45,094 nt of DNA from a virus: positions 1 to 45,094 of IMG/VR virus record IMGVR_UViG_3300033149_003380. One strand, 5' to 3'. Made by a program: the position numbers and the translations under genes. The notes beneath the pieces are model-generated. The model saw only the letters and a list, made by a program, of their open reading frames with translations, had not been told where the DNA came from and made no database searches. Position 1 is the first letter of the stretch. Each line of letters starts with the position of its first letter. Below, piece by piece: positions 1 through 45,094 of this stretch.

Positions 1-34
1 ATCAACAAAAAGCGGAAATTGAAAGAGAAAAACA
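1..34. repeat. Terminal direct repeat, left copy (assembly closure)
   Basis: These 34 bases are identical to the last 34 bases of the window (45061-45094). A coding frame continues through the join, so this looks like the overlap of a circular or circularly permuted genome written out linearly. It is too short to be a typical physical terminal repeat. Confidence 0.9.
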
Positions 35-25618: not shown

Positions 25619-25633
25619 TTTCGCTACCTTAAA

Positions 25634-25692
25634 GCAGGGGCTAAAATCCAACAACAAGGAGCTGTCGCAAAAAAAAGGCAGTTAGCCCCTGC
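25634..25692 (+). terminator. Hairpin closing the phosphoesterase operon
   Basis: GCAGGGGCTAA pairs perfectly with TTAGCCCCTGC over 11 bp with a 37-nt A-rich loop, followed by CTACCTTTT. The stem sequence resembles the hairpin at 24054, suggesting both ends of the cassette share origin. Confidence 0.55.
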
Positions 25693-25701
25693 CTACCTTT
25701 T

Positions 25702-25851
25702 ATGAAAAAAAAGTTTAGTTTAAGATGTAAAATATGTAATAAAGAGTGTGGTAAAGTAATACCACCCGCAAGGGGGGAATTTCAATGTCCAAAATGTAAA
25801 AAATTATTTGAATATCAAACAATACCAAAATTAGTTATTAAAGAAAAATAA
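25702..25851 (+). CDS. 49-residue zinc-ribbon protein
   Basis: MKKKFSLRCKICNKECGKV, then ARGEFQCPKCKKLFEYQ: two CxxC pairs about 18 residues apart, the classic mini zinc ribbon. It begins 9 nt after the hairpin. Tiny ribbons of this type often bind nucleic acids or accompany polymerases. The following gene begins 1 nt after its stop. Confidence 0.6.
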   Translation: MKKKFSLRCKICNKECGKVIPPARGEFQCPKCKKLFEYQTIPKLVIKEK

Positions 25852-26062: not shown

Positions 26063-26368
26063 ATGTTAGAACAATTTGACCCAACAATTATTAAATTAGC
26101 CAAATTTTATCATATCCCCAATATGGACTGGCAAGATATAGCCCAAGAATTGCGGTTACATCTATGGCTCAAATTAAAAACCCACAATCCTCGCAAGTTT
26201 GATGACTGGGCATATATTGCTTGTAAAAAGAAAATTATTGATTTATGGCGAAAGCAAACCCATTCTCGTAGCTCCAAAAATATACAATTTATTAGTTTAG
26301 ACGCATTAAAAGAGAAAGGGCTTGATATTTCTGAAAGTTCCGTCGTCTTTAATAGTAGAGATGGTTAA
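26063..26368 (+). CDS. Sigma-70 region-2-like transcription factor
   Basis: 101 residues. MDWQDIAQELRLHLWLKL matches sigma region 2.1-2.2 (core RNA polymerase contact) and KFDDWAYIACKKKIIDLWRKQTH matches 2.3-2.4 (-10 recognition and melting). No region 4 helix-turn-helix follows; the last 30 residues look unstructured. A short phage sigma-like protein could redirect host RNA polymerase to late promoters, and it sits at the early/late boundary directly before the terminase region. It has no Shine-Dalgarno site and begins right after a terminator. A 5-bp hairpin overlaps its stop. Confidence 0.6.
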   Translation: MLEQFDPTIIKLAKFYHIPNMDWQDIAQELRLHLWLKLKTHNPRKFDDWAYIACKKKIIDLWRKQTHSRSSKNIQFISLDALKEKGLDISESSVVFNSRDG

Positions 26369-26376
26369 TCTCAAAA

Positions 26377-26431
26377 ACAGACAAGCCAAATACTCTGGTC
26401 TGTGCCGTTTTAGATAACGGCTTCTTTGGCT
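26377..26431 (+). ncRNA. Interleaved dyads, candidate H-type RNA pseudoknot 1
   Basis: ACAGAC (26377-26382) pairs with GTCTGT (26398-26403), and AGCCAAA (26384-26390) pairs with TTTGGCT (26425-26431). The pairs interleave (A-B-A'-B'). A third stem, GCCGTT/AACGGC with a 6-nt loop, sits between. Loop 1 is a single nt across a 7-bp stem, the classic feasible geometry when read on the + strand. On the minus strand it ends in TTTTT and could instead terminate the leftward genes. Confidence 0.5.
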
Positions 26432-26472
26432 AATAAAAAAAGAGACGACACCGCAATGCCGCCCCTTTCTCA

Positions 26473-26649
26473 TTAAATATTTGCCCCCGCCAACAAATAA
26501 CAAAGCAATAATACAAATACAGCAACCCAGACATAAACTATCAATCTACCCTTGAAAGCAACCCACGCTCGTTTTCTACTTGCCCATTTTTGAAGCTGTT
26601 GTCTGTTATAATTGACCATTGGAGCAAAATCTTTATCAATATATCTCAT
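26473..26649 (-). CDS. 58-residue leftward membrane protein
   Basis: Starts MRYIDKDFAPMVNYNRQQLQ, then a basic stretch (KWASRKRAWVAFKGR) and one transmembrane helix (about 38-55, LIVYVWVAVFVLLLCYLLAG). It is one of only two credible leftward genes. Its upstream 40 nt closely match those of the other leftward gene at 26935, which supports expression from a shared element. The function is unknown; a small host-envelope effector is possible. Confidence 0.55.
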   Translation of the reverse strand: MRYIDKDFAPMVNYNRQQLQKWASRKRAWVAFKGRLIVYVWVAVFVLLLCYLLAGANI

Positions 26650-26654
26650 ATTAA

Positions 26655-26684
26655 TTGTAAAGAGCCAATAACAACCCTTATAAT
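26655..26684 (+). promoter_or_regulatory. Duplicated promoter-like element, copy 1
   Basis: TTAATTGTAAAG ... CCTTATAATTA lies directly upstream of the leftward gene that starts at 26649. Read rightward it is TTGTAA-N18-TATAAT with a perfect -10; read leftward it is the leader of the gene. Copy 2 is at 26941-26970. Confidence 0.5.
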
Positions 26685-26703
26685 TACTTGTTAACTTACT
26701 TTA

Positions 26704-26741
26704 TAGGCAACACTTCAAGCCGTTGATTGAAATGTCGCCTA
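26704..26741. other. Long imperfect hairpin between the leftward genes
   Basis: TAGGC-a-ACA-c-TTCAA pairs with TTGAA-a-TGT-c-GCCTA: 13 bp with two single mismatches around an 8-nt loop. It lies just after the stop of the leftward gene 26750-26935 and downstream of rightward promoter copy 1. There is no T run on either strand, so its role (terminator, small RNA or operator) is unclear. Confidence 0.5.
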
Positions 26742-26749
26742 AAAATAAA

Positions 26750-26935
26750 CTAAATATCCTCTTCTGTAATTGCTTTTGGCATTAAATCCTCTGTCTTTTG
26801 TGTTTTTATCAATTCTGCTACTCTTTGAGCGTATTTTTCTGTAATTTTTCTTTTATCGCCCGCCTCAATAGTAATAATTACGGGCATATCATTTAGCTCT
26901 TTGTTGTTTTCAAACCAATAAACTAATTTTTTCAT
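26750..26935 (-). CDS. Leftward small acidic protein
   Basis: 61 residues: a strand-rich start (MKKLVYWFENNKELNDMPVI and ITIEAG) followed by a charged helix (RKITEKYAQRVAELIKTQ) and an acidic tail. The composition is protein-like and no competing rightward gene exists. A TTGACA-N17-TAAACT promoter reads leftward into it from 27080, which would place the interleaved dyads at 26977-27038 in its leader. No family recognised. Confidence 0.55.
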   Translation of the reverse strand: MKKLVYWFENNKELNDMPVIITIEAGDKRKITEKYAQRVAELIKTQKTEDLMPKAITEEDI

Positions 26936-26940
26936 TTTAA

Positions 26941-26970
26941 TTGTAAAGGTTCAACGACACACCTTATAAT
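26941..26970 (+). promoter_or_regulatory. Duplicated promoter-like element, copy 2
   Basis: TTGTAA (26941-26946), 18 nt, TATAAT (26965-26970). It is preceded by TTTTAA and followed by TAAATAT. A rightward transcript would start near 26977, exactly at the first base of pseudoknot 2. Copy 1 has the same hexamers and spacing, but the spacers differ. Confidence 0.5.
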
Positions 26971-26976
26971 TAAATA

Positions 26977-27038
26977 TCCCTGCGACTAAACGGCAAGTAA
27001 AATCGCAGGGAATAAGTATTCATATATCTTGCCGTTTA
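26977..27038 (+). ncRNA. Interleaved dyads, candidate structured RNA/pseudoknot 2
   Basis: TCCCTGCGA (26977-26985) pairs perfectly with TCGCAGGGA (27003-27011), and TAAACGGCAAG (26987-26997) pairs perfectly with CTTGCCGTTTA (27028-27038). The two stems (9 and 11 bp) interleave, so they form either a pseudoknot or two mutually exclusive hairpins (a switch). Loop 1 is 1 nt on the + strand. It sits 118 nt before the small terminase gene. Confidence 0.6.
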
Positions 27039-27051
27039 ATCGTCTATTATA

Positions 27052-27080
27052 AGTTTATTAAATAAAAAATACCTTGTCAA
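27052..27080 (-). promoter_or_regulatory. Leftward promoter
   Basis: On the minus strand, TTGACA (27080-27075) and TAAACT (27057-27052) are separated by 17 nt; a perfect TATAAT also occurs at 27051-27046 but 23 nt away. Transcription would proceed through the dyad element into the leftward gene at 26935. Confidence 0.45.
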
Positions 27081-27122
27081 GTGTTTTAAAAACAACCCCA
27101 ATTTACGACCATTTTAACCAAG

Positions 27123-27131
27123 TTATCCACA
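27123..27131 (+). promoter_or_regulatory. DnaA box upstream of small terminase
   Basis: An exact TTATCCACA, followed by GG, 24 nt before the ATG of the small terminase gene. It matches the pair at 17185-17205. Confidence 0.5.
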
Positions 27132-32041: not shown

Positions 32042-33544
32042 GTGAAAAAGTTCTTTAAATTGTGGAACATTTTATTTGGAAAGTTAAGCATTGGTTGTGC
32101 CACTGACGAAGAATTAAGAACCTATGGTGATGTTTCTCGTAAAGAGGACGTGCTCGGTTTAGTTGAAATTCTTACCGCCACAGAAGATTATTTTCTAAAT
32201 AATCTTGGTAAGACAACCGCTACCGATATGGTACACATCACATTAACCGATACCCTTAGGAGCGTTGCAACAGCAGCAGTAGCTGAAGGTGGAGACTATA
32301 CAATGTTGGCTAGAACTACACCTTCTAGACTACAGAATATAGTTGAAATCGTTGCCATTCCTTATTCGGTTACTAGGTCACAACAGCAAATTACCAAACA
32401 CACTGGTGTAAACGAATTAGCTCGACAAACAGCTAAAGCTATTAAAGAATGGGCTGACGCAGCTGAATTTGATATTGTTCGAAGCACATTGACTTCTGGA
32501 GCATCTGGAACTACCCCGAAGATGAGTAAACTTAAAAATAAAATATATGAATTGTTTAAATTGTGGAAAGCCAAAACCAAACAAGCGTGCGAAACTATGT
32601 CGCAAATGCTATTTGGAAAAAGCGAAAGAATTTTTGCCTCCAACTATATTTAAAAAGGGACAAAATTCTGGAAAGAAACATCCATTATGGAAAGGGGGAA
32701 TGATAATTTATTGGAGAAATAAAGTATTAAAAAGGGATGATTATACTTGTAAAAATTGTGGGTTAAAAGAACCAAAGATAATGGATGTTGCTCACTTAAA
32801 ACCTATTAATGGAAATAAAAATAGGAGGTATAAACCACAAGATCCAAACAATCTTATAACATTATGTCCTAATTGTCATAGACGATTAGACAAAGGGCTT
32901 CTAAAGTATACTGCTCATCTAAAACCCCGCTAAAACGGTGAACTCCCAAAGAACGCCGTGCTAGCAGAGACAATGACCGTATGGGTCGTCTCGGGCAAGT
33001 GTAGAGACTTTACACGGGGCTCTCCGAAAGGAGATGAAGACAAAGTCCATTTATGGGTATACTGGAAGCTATTAGTCGTGCCGAAACTTATTCAGCACAG
33101 TCTTCTGGAACAGCTTTTGCTACCACTATTCTTTCTTTAATGATGAAGGATAGTTGGGATGATGGTAATGGCGATGTTGCTACCGACCTATTTGTTGGTT
33201 CTTATTTAATGGATGTTATTGACCGATTTACCACAAAGACTAATGTTATGATGAACCTTCAAGGAGCTCGTGAAATCACTATGGCTACTTCAGTATTTGA
33301 AACTAGCTTTGGTAGATTAAATGTTCACAAGCACCGACACCTTCAAATTTCAACTGATGCTACTGGTCGAGTATTATTGCTCCGACCTGACAAGTTGAAA
33401 ATTGCTTATCTCCAAAGACCATTTATTGACACAGGATTAGCAAGAAGCGGTGATTACGACAAACGAGCAGTTGTTGGTAAGTTAACATTAGAAGTTAGAA
33501 ATCAACTTGGTCATATTTACCACACCGGATTCAATATTGGCTAA
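32042..33544 (+). CDS. Major capsid protein (SU10/DUF5309-like), interrupted by a group I intron
   Basis: Exon 1 is 32042-32527 (162 codons) and exon 2 is 33056-33544 (162 codons plus stop). Spliced, they give 324 residues with the junction ...GTTPKMS|GILEAISRAE. Family features: RTYGDVSRKEDVLGLVE near the start, KEWADAAEFDIVRSTL, then MKDSWDDGNGDVATDLFVG and a jelly-free HK97-type C-terminus (RVLLLRPDKLKIAYLQRPF). The only in-frame start is GTG 32042, preceded by GGCGAAA. The first 20 residues look foreign to the family, which usually starts near ATDEELR. Unspliced mRNA would end at 32653. It is the head shell subunit. Confidence 0.85.
32528..33055 (+). mobile_element. Group I self-splicing intron (528 nt) in the capsid gene
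   Basis: Exon 1 ends in U (32527) and the intron ends in G (33055). P1: exon AGATGAGT (32520-32527) pairs with GCTCATCT (32913-32920), 7 Watson-Crick pairs plus the terminal U-G. P10: exon 2 GGTATAC (33056-33062) pairs with GTATACT (32906-32912). P3: CCGTG 32956-32960 with CACGG 33013-33017. P4/P5: GAGAC/GTCTC and GACC/GGTC (32967-32992). P7: GACTTT 33006-33011 with AAAGTC 33042-33047. P8: TCTCC-GAAA-GGAGA (33021-33034), a GNRA loop. Removal restores the reading frame. Confidence 0.92.
32547..32933 (+). CDS. Intron-encoded HNH homing endonuclease
   Basis: 128 residues in the P1 loop of the intron. Residues 3-22 form a zinc ribbon (CLNCGKPKPNKRAKLCRKC). Then comes GGMIIYWRNKVLKRDDYTC and an HNH core, CKNCGLKEPKIMDVAHLKP ... 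NNLITLCPNCHRRLDKG, with two CxxC pairs, the central His and the Asn. The last codons (AHLKPR) are written in the P1 internal guide sequence, so protein and ribozyme share bases. HNH enzymes of this type cut intron-less alleles and spread the intron. It is presumably translated from unspliced mRNA. Confidence 0.88.
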   Translation: MNCLNCGKPKPNKRAKLCRKCYLEKAKEFLPPTIFKKGQNSGKKHPLWKGGMIIYWRNKVLKRDDYTCKNCGLKEPKIMDVAHLKPINGNKNRRYKPQDPNNLITLCPNCHRRLDKGLLKYTAHLKPR

Positions 33545-33567: not shown

Positions 33568-33644
33568 CCATAGTTGCCTTGTCTATGGCTCGCTGGGGCG
33601 CTCAGGTCTGACCCGTTCGCCCCAGTCGGGTCAGGCAGTCATAG
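33568..33644 (+). other. GC-rich interleaved-dyad structure after the capsid gene
   Basis: CTGGGGCG (33593-33600) pairs with CGCCCCAG (33618-33625), and CTGACCCG (33608-33615) pairs with CGGGTCAG (33627-33634); both are perfect 8-bp stems and they interleave. CCATAG/CTATGG (33568-33588) and CTATG/CATAG (33583-33644) add outer stems. It occupies nearly the whole gap after the capsid stop and is far richer in GC than its surroundings. There is no T tract. It could be a pseudoknot (1-nt crossing loop is favourable on the minus strand), a pause or processing site, or DNA operators. Confidence 0.6.
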
Positions 33645-33645
33645 C

Positions 33646-44619: not shown

Positions 44620-45094
44620 CTTGGAAAGAAAGCGATATTATCGCACAAGCCAAACAGCACAATCAACAACAAAAAAAAGAACGATATGTAAATGATATTC
44701 AAGAATCTTTTGGCTTAACAAGAGATTTAGATTATTATGATTTATTACAATTTTTCGATATTCAAAAAGAAGATTTGTTTAATAGAGAAGTAATAAGAAA
44801 GATAGATACTATATATGAGTATTTAAAAGAAAAAGGAAATGTTTTAAAAGAAGCAAAAAGACTTGATATACAACTAGGAAGACCCCTTTTAATGAATAAG
44901 TTAAATAAATTTTATAGCGAAATTCATTTATGGAATCTTGAGAAAGGAATTCAAGACAAACGCACAAGAGATATTAAAACCGAACAAATGATTAAAGAAA
45001 AAAAACAACTTCTTCAGTCTCGCTTATTAGATAAAAAGAAAGCACAAGAAAAAGCAAAATATCAACAAAAAGCGGAAATTGAAAGAGAAAAACA
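44592..45094 (+). CDS. N-terminal part of the junction-spanning coiled-coil protein
   Basis: Starts MESSSDAELTWKESDIIAQA inside the end of the last glycosyltransferase gene and is open to the window end, continuing at position 1 (stop 161). This part is mixed helical (DYYDLLQFFDIQKEDLFNRE, KEAKRLDIQLGRPLLMNKLN) before the Lys/Glu/Gln-rich coil. The central block RLDIQLGRPLLMNKLNKFYS might be a small helical DNA- or protein-binding domain. No family recognised. Confidence 0.75.
   Translation, partial: MESSSDAELTWKESDIIAQAKQHNQQQKKERYVNDIQESFGLTRDLDYYDLLQFFDIQKEDLFNREVIRKIDTIYEYLKEKGNVLKEAKRLDIQLGRPLLMNKLNKFYSEIHLWNLEKGIQDKRTRDIKTEQMIKEKKQLLQSRLLDKKKAQEKAKYQQKAEIEREK
45061..45094. repeat. Terminal direct repeat, right copy (assembly closure)
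   Basis: Identical to bases 1-34. Removing one copy gives a 45,060-bp circle in which the coiled-coil gene is continuous. Confidence 0.9.

Follow-up and report, generated by a model that had tools for sequence, protein, structure and literature searches.

Two interleaved helices of 9 bp with no loop to cross them raise the question of whether both can coexist in one RNA or whether they are the two states of a switch. A locus with interleaved stems lies in the phage DNA analysed here over its whole length of 45,094 nt (the window), a 45-kb genome with terminase, capsid and tail genes, in which nearly all genes are read rightward and gene 1 and gene 2 (Table 1) are the only supported leftward ones. 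The first and last 34 bp of the window (1–34 and 45061–45094) are identical, so that the genome is probably complete and circularly assembled. A scan of it for tRNA and tmRNA found none, and a provirus search for the host with the capsid protein in genome contigs gave no match.

Table 1: Features of the leftward operon, its leader and the element behind the capsid gene; all positions are those of the window.
Feature	Position	Strand	Sequence and remarks
−35 hexamer, leftward promoter	27075–27080	−	TTGACA; spacer 17; promoter matches consensus at 10/12
−10 hexamer, leftward promoter	27052–27057	−	TAAACT
DnaA-box-like box	27121–27131	−	TGTGGATAA/TTATCCACA; near leftward promoter
9-bp stem, perfect	26977–26985 / 27003–27011		TCCCTGCGA / TCGCAGGGA (plus-strand letters)
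11-bp stem, perfect	26987–26997 / 27028–27038		TAAACGGCAAG / CTTGCCGTTTA (plus-strand letters)
Stem X, 5' arm	27028–27042	−	CGATTAAACGGCAAG; 15 bp with one U-G on minus
Stem X, 3' arm	26983–26997	−	CTTGCCGTTTAGTCG; pairs with 27028–27042
Stem Y, 5' arm	27001–27011	−	TCCCTGCGATT; 9-bp stem extended to 11 bp, one U-G on minus
Stem Y, 3' arm	26977–26987	−	AGTCGCAGGGA; overlap with X up to 5 nt
Possible outer stem (speculative)	26964–26971 / 27053–27046	−	ATTATAAG with CTTATAAT; listed as pair
Translation-start hairpin of gene 1	26936–26968	−	AAGGT-GTGTCGTTGA-ACCTT, then TACAATTAAA, ATG 26935; copy before 26649
Gene 1, 61 aa	26750–26935	−	coding score resembles structural genes
Hairpin between genes 1 and 2	26704–26741	−	15 bp, two G-U on minus; gene 2 leader z −5.7
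Gene 2, 58 aa	26473–26649	−	hydrophobic stretch near C end; low coding score
Terminator-like hairpin and U tract, operon end	26430–26471	−	16 pairs, 6 G-U on minus
Second interleaved element	33569–33645	+	after major capsid gene, before ATG 33646

The original prediction of perfect, interleaved stems of 9 and 11 bp holds, and their interleaving exceeds that of shuffled sequence. When the 220-bp intergenic region was shuffled 5000 times with dinucleotides preserved, three shuffles gave any stem of comparable quality and none an interleaved pair this strong; 20 shuffles of the entire window likewise yielded no equally strong interleaved pair, and a separate script run on the leader element gave 0/3000. 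The 11-bp stem lengthens to 15 bp (26983–26997 with 27028–27042) with one mismatch in DNA (14/15), and at full extension its arms (X) therefore overlap those of the other stem (Y), the overlap after G-U extension being 3–5 nt. The speculative outer stem would need a transcription start upstream of 27053. No further copies of the arms exist in the genome, and neither an exact motif search of viral contigs nor a DNA search of phage records gave a match.

Searches with the portal, terminase and capsid proteins retrieved records of uncultured phages; in the annotated phage collection no portal relative was found and capsid matches were only about 30% identical. Two of the relatives, L153 and L127, are the only firm ones with the leader element, and their divergence is too great for covariation to be followed column by column. 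In L153 the plus strand between the leftward operon and the terminase reads CCGCTTCG CTT GACACTACC AAA CGAAGCGG ATACGATAAATGC GGTAGTGTC, where the pair CCGCTTCG/CGAAGCGG is interleaved with GACACTACC/GGTAGTGTC (2/3000 shuffles). The order is the same as in the window and the spacing similar, and no letters are shared. The element of L127 (TCACTAGAG / CTTGTTCTGC / CTCTAGTGA / GCAGAACAAG; 0/1000 shuffles) ends 18 nt before the first leftward ORF, and in both phages a promoter and a box of the same kind as in the window adjoin the element. A weaker case in L177 sits in a rightward leader (4/1000 shuffles), and in L134, L103, L100, L155 and L140 the promoter is present and the interleaved element absent. 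Selection on the pairing, as had been predicted, is supported by L153 and L127, which keep the complementarity with wholly different sequence; the compensatory changes to be looked for in relatives take the form of wholesale replacement in these two cases, there being no close relative for a pair-by-pair comparison. As the letters are unrelated and the pairing is kept, the function must reside in the structure. Template switching can generate interleaved inverted repeats, and an element arising in this way or by chance, without function, would fit its absence from several relatives; in view of the 0/5000 shuffles and of the perfect interleaved pairs that two relatives possess independently at this position, such an origin is hardly credible.

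The sense strand was judged from promoters and from wobble pairs. A sigma-70-type promoter, with its hexamers 17 nt apart, inside the expected 16–18 nt, and in an arrangement kept in relatives, faces leftward beside the element, and the leftward transcript would start near 27045, 3 nt ahead of where pairing begins on the minus strand. The element had been proposed to be the leader of the gene at 26935, and the leftward TTGACA-17-TAAACT match (27080–27052) agrees with this and is better backed by relatives: a TTGACA promoter beside a TTATCCACA/TGTGGATAA box is also found in L153, L127, L103, L100, L140, L155, L177 and L134. Nucleotide 26986 gives an A-C mismatch in both extended stems on the plus strand and a G wobbling with U on the minus strand, where X with 15 bp and Y with 11 bp are both unbroken because the G-U pair forms in either alternative. 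At the first position past each Watson–Crick stem in the window, L153 and L127, stems that had been detected without regard to strand, the strand read from the promoter has six G-U against one A-C. This bias favours the minus strand as the sense strand, which is a lean and not a proof; the hairpin at 26704–26741 shows a G-U bias towards the same strand, and in the general scan the opposite-strand scores of L153 and L127 were about equal to those of the sense strand.

A rightward reading starts from a TTGTAA-N18-TATAAT match at 26941–26970, which ends 6 nt ahead of the element and had suggested a rightward transcript from 26977. The terminase transcript would then open with an H-type pseudoknot, folded from the plus-strand RNA, that protects or regulates it, and the plus-strand loops (1, 5 and 16 nt; 3, 3 and 13 nt in L153) are indeed nearer to the classical H-type than those of the minus strand. 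This part of the prediction is not supported. Promoter-like matches in the region of the element are no more frequent than in its shuffles, and the match belongs to a 41-bp motif that is repeated before gene 2 at 26646–26686 (TTGTAA-N18-TATAAT copy at 26655–26684). Each copy directly adjoins the start codon of a leftward gene and, in the leftward direction, gives a 5-bp hairpin followed by UACAAUUAA-AUG; TTGTAAAG-N-TTATAATTA has two exact matches in the window and none in shuffles, and a like start-hairpin design precedes small leftward genes in L092, L093 and L153. As the motif abuts two leftward starts and relatives share the design, we read TTGTAA-N18-TATAAT as a leftward translation-start region, the supposed promoter being its reverse complement. 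A search for a clear counterpart of the rightward promoter in L153 found none, and together with the A-C mismatches on the plus strand this makes a rightward leader quite unlikely.

The location in a divergent control region near the terminase genes and the TTATCCACA box at 27123 could also point to a site in double-stranded DNA, namely the operator of a dimeric regulator, a replication origin marked by the DnaA-like box or a terminase site. Since the arms have no second copy in the genome, the relatives keep complementarity and not sequence, and the G-U bias favours one strand, we regard such a site as very improbable. Nothing found here speaks for binding by the small terminase, which had been suggested as a check. 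Perfect TTATCCACA (DnaA-box) sites occur in the window at 27123, 17185, 17197 and 19569. That the pairing is conserved and the letters are not speaks against a ligand-binding riboswitch as well as a DNA operator, and favours an element recognised by its structure.

The product of gene 1 has no PHROG or Pfam match, and no homologue of it was found by sequence in viral contigs, phage records or 23 related records; the same searches with the protein at the position of the small terminase gave none either, apart from a weak 35% partial match in L174. L134 keeps the order of a sigma-region-2 gene, a small hydrophobic leftward gene, a second leftward gene and the divergent terminase, and its second leftward gene is 51% identical to a gene in the long leftward operon of L092. 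In the window a short ORF that matches sigma-70 region 2 only (PF04542) adjoins the leftward genes (26063–26368) and is 42% identical in L134 (6429–6749). In composition-corrected folding over the whole record, the minus-strand segments 26935–27014 and 26675–26754 rank second and fifth. Two generalisations were rejected: leftward leaders are not more structured than rightward ones (mean z −1.35 vs −1.20), and not every leftward leader is interleaved, most having plain two-tier hairpins or little structure.

Most spacers of the L092 leftward operon carry a long two-tier hairpin, then a small start hairpin. Two-tier spacer hairpins with a recurring internal loop (5' CUGA ... 3' AUGAG) were seen in L092 (3400–7650, minus strand), L134 (7020) and L155 (885). 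The long hairpins in most L092 spacers and in the spacer here, the start of the element at the predicted 5' end and the interleaved stems without conserved letters would also agree with a structure-only barrier, in which 5'-terminal hairpins act against 5'-end-dependent decay or mark a processing site without any switching. A single hairpin would suffice for this, leaving the two perfect interleaved stems unexplained, and we do not consider it a likely explanation. Two further leaders were noted in passing. A 13-bp hairpin with a 37-nt loop lies at 25632–25694 before a 49-aa CxxC ORF (start near 25702; leader z −5.6), and in the leader of a glutaredoxin-like gene in L091 (320–440, minus strand) an outer stem encloses two interleaved pairs, CAGTATGCC/GGCATACTG and CTCTGTGTA/TATACAGAG.

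Can X and Y then form together? On the sense strand the loops measure 16/5/1 in the window, 13/3/3 in L153, 3/6/2 in L127 and mostly about 5/3/0 in the element behind the capsid gene described below, which leaves a crossing loop of 0–3 nt against a stem of 9–15 bp. A classical H-type pseudoknot requires several nucleotides to cross a 9-bp stem. By this geometric reasoning the short crossing loop and the overlapping stems make a complete classical pseudoknot unlikely. Of the predicted ‘pseudoknot or switch’, competing hairpins or a partial pseudoknot fit the data better than the complete classical form. For the 81-nt minus-strand piece 26970–27050, folding gives two states of −21.1 and −20.8 kcal/mol, 0.3 apart, a near-equality limited to this piece as the isolated hairpins have −19.7 (X) and −17.0 (Y); L127 strongly prefers Y.

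The pairing, the conservation of its topology, the strand asymmetry and the promoter and start-region context can be read directly from the sequence. The element probably works in cis as the RNA leader of the operon formed by the two leftward genes; made from the minus strand, it would adopt two states and control translation or decay. In the mechanism that we infer, comprising the transcription start, the competition in vivo and the regulatory role, the transcript from the TTGACA/TAAACT promoter would begin about 3 nt ahead of the first paired base, and X would join the 5' end of the mRNA to the loop region of hairpin Y. The two stems would compete for the 3–5 shared nucleotides at similar energy or, alternatively, a shortened X might form together with Y as a partial pseudoknot. 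The translation or decay of the operon mRNA could then be set by the ribosome, by a nuclease or by a protein that recognises the structure, with control acting upstream of the A+U-rich start region that bears its own small hairpin.

The second interleaved element, behind the major capsid gene, consists of S1 (CTGGGGCG/CGCCCCAG) and S2 (CTGACCCG/CGGGTCAG) enclosed by P1 (CTATG/CATAG), and was equalled in none of 3000 shuffles. A scan of 1.97 Mb for interleaving gave 49 matches, which include some contigs counted twice under two locus names, vs five in one full shuffle, and the majority lie directly 3' of the major capsid gene ahead of the next start codon. A search directed at 54 post-capsid regions found an interleaved pair in 40 (38 distinct), of which 31 have the enclosing stem P1; of 400 trials with shuffled regions, 14 came up to the threshold and none to the region's own score. 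Several regions that were scored negative, L087, L107 and L108 among them, yet visibly carry an interleaved pair, and others have a plain hairpin only. All four Watson–Crick pair types occur at each position examined of S1 and S2, in sequences that had been selected for pairing. Of the 929 leaders in the relatives, 37 score as interleaved, the gene 1 leader of the window included, vs three in one shuffle. Comparison of the capsid-gene element with Rfam gave no credible match, and it possibly outweighs the gene 1 leader element in importance. The capsid gene itself is split by about 0.5 kb in the window (about 32500–33055) and at the same place in L090, L091 and L103, and is continuous in other relatives; the interruption gives a weak group I intron signal (RF00028, 14.5 bits, E 0.56).

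Tentatively, these elements might represent a new class of regulatory phage RNA whose only defining feature is topology; they would switch translation, either as bistable RNAs or as strained pseudoknots, and be used at least twice in the same phages. In this proposal, which we regard as possible and not yet as probable, the loop of a hairpin shows perfect complementarity to the strand beside it and no letters are conserved, the stems would have about 8–11 bp and the loops about 5/3/0 or 13–16/3–5/0–3, and the sites would be the leftward operon at its 5' end and the gap that separates the major capsid gene from its downstream neighbour. If true, a family of interleaved-stem leaders held by structure across a large group of uncultured phages would evade sequence-profile searches, and such leaders would broaden the known RNA-level control in DNA phages.

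Among described RNAs, Rfam 15 gave no match at gathering level in the window, L153 or L092, and relaxed thresholds gave only weak, chance-level matches. The candidate manA-II RNA (RF04315; 23.5 bits, E 0.045–0.26, minus strand) was rejected, as its gathering score is 100 bits and many consensus pairs are broken. A literature search, which is weak negative evidence, found no description of such an element. Bacterial attenuators and the expression platforms of riboswitches use mutually exclusive hairpins, and like these the leader would have two hairpins competing for shared nucleotides. In contrast to them no U tract follows either stem and no ligand-binding letters are conserved; a search for a terminator-like site at 26977–27045 on both strands found none, and the element is thus not an attenuator. 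In the T7 early operon RNase III sites lie between small early genes, a position in which L092 and, ahead of gene 2, the window likewise have long hairpins interrupted by internal loops. The element itself differs from these sites in that it comprises two interleaved stems where they have one hairpin. The closest known system is the translational operator of gene 32 in T4, T2 and RB69, in which an A+U-rich stretch containing UUAA repeats comes after a leader pseudoknot and overlaps the start region, and which has been termed possibly the sole viral pseudoknot in translational autoregulation (PMC3014915). Like it, the element here would be a phage mRNA leader in which interleaved stems precede a start codon and an A+U-rich stretch. 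The T4-type pseudoknot, however, is built of two coaxially stacked helices and is bound by gp32, the single-strand binding protein, whereas the helices here are long (9–15 bp) and overlapping with a crossing loop of 0–3 nt, and gene 1, with 61 aa and no PHROG or Pfam match, does not qualify as a single-strand DNA-binding protein. As gene and loop geometry differ, we do not file the element as a T4-type gene 32 operator; at most it may work like one. Judged by its sequence it is a real, selected structure and an undescribed variant of phage leader RNA with a putative function.
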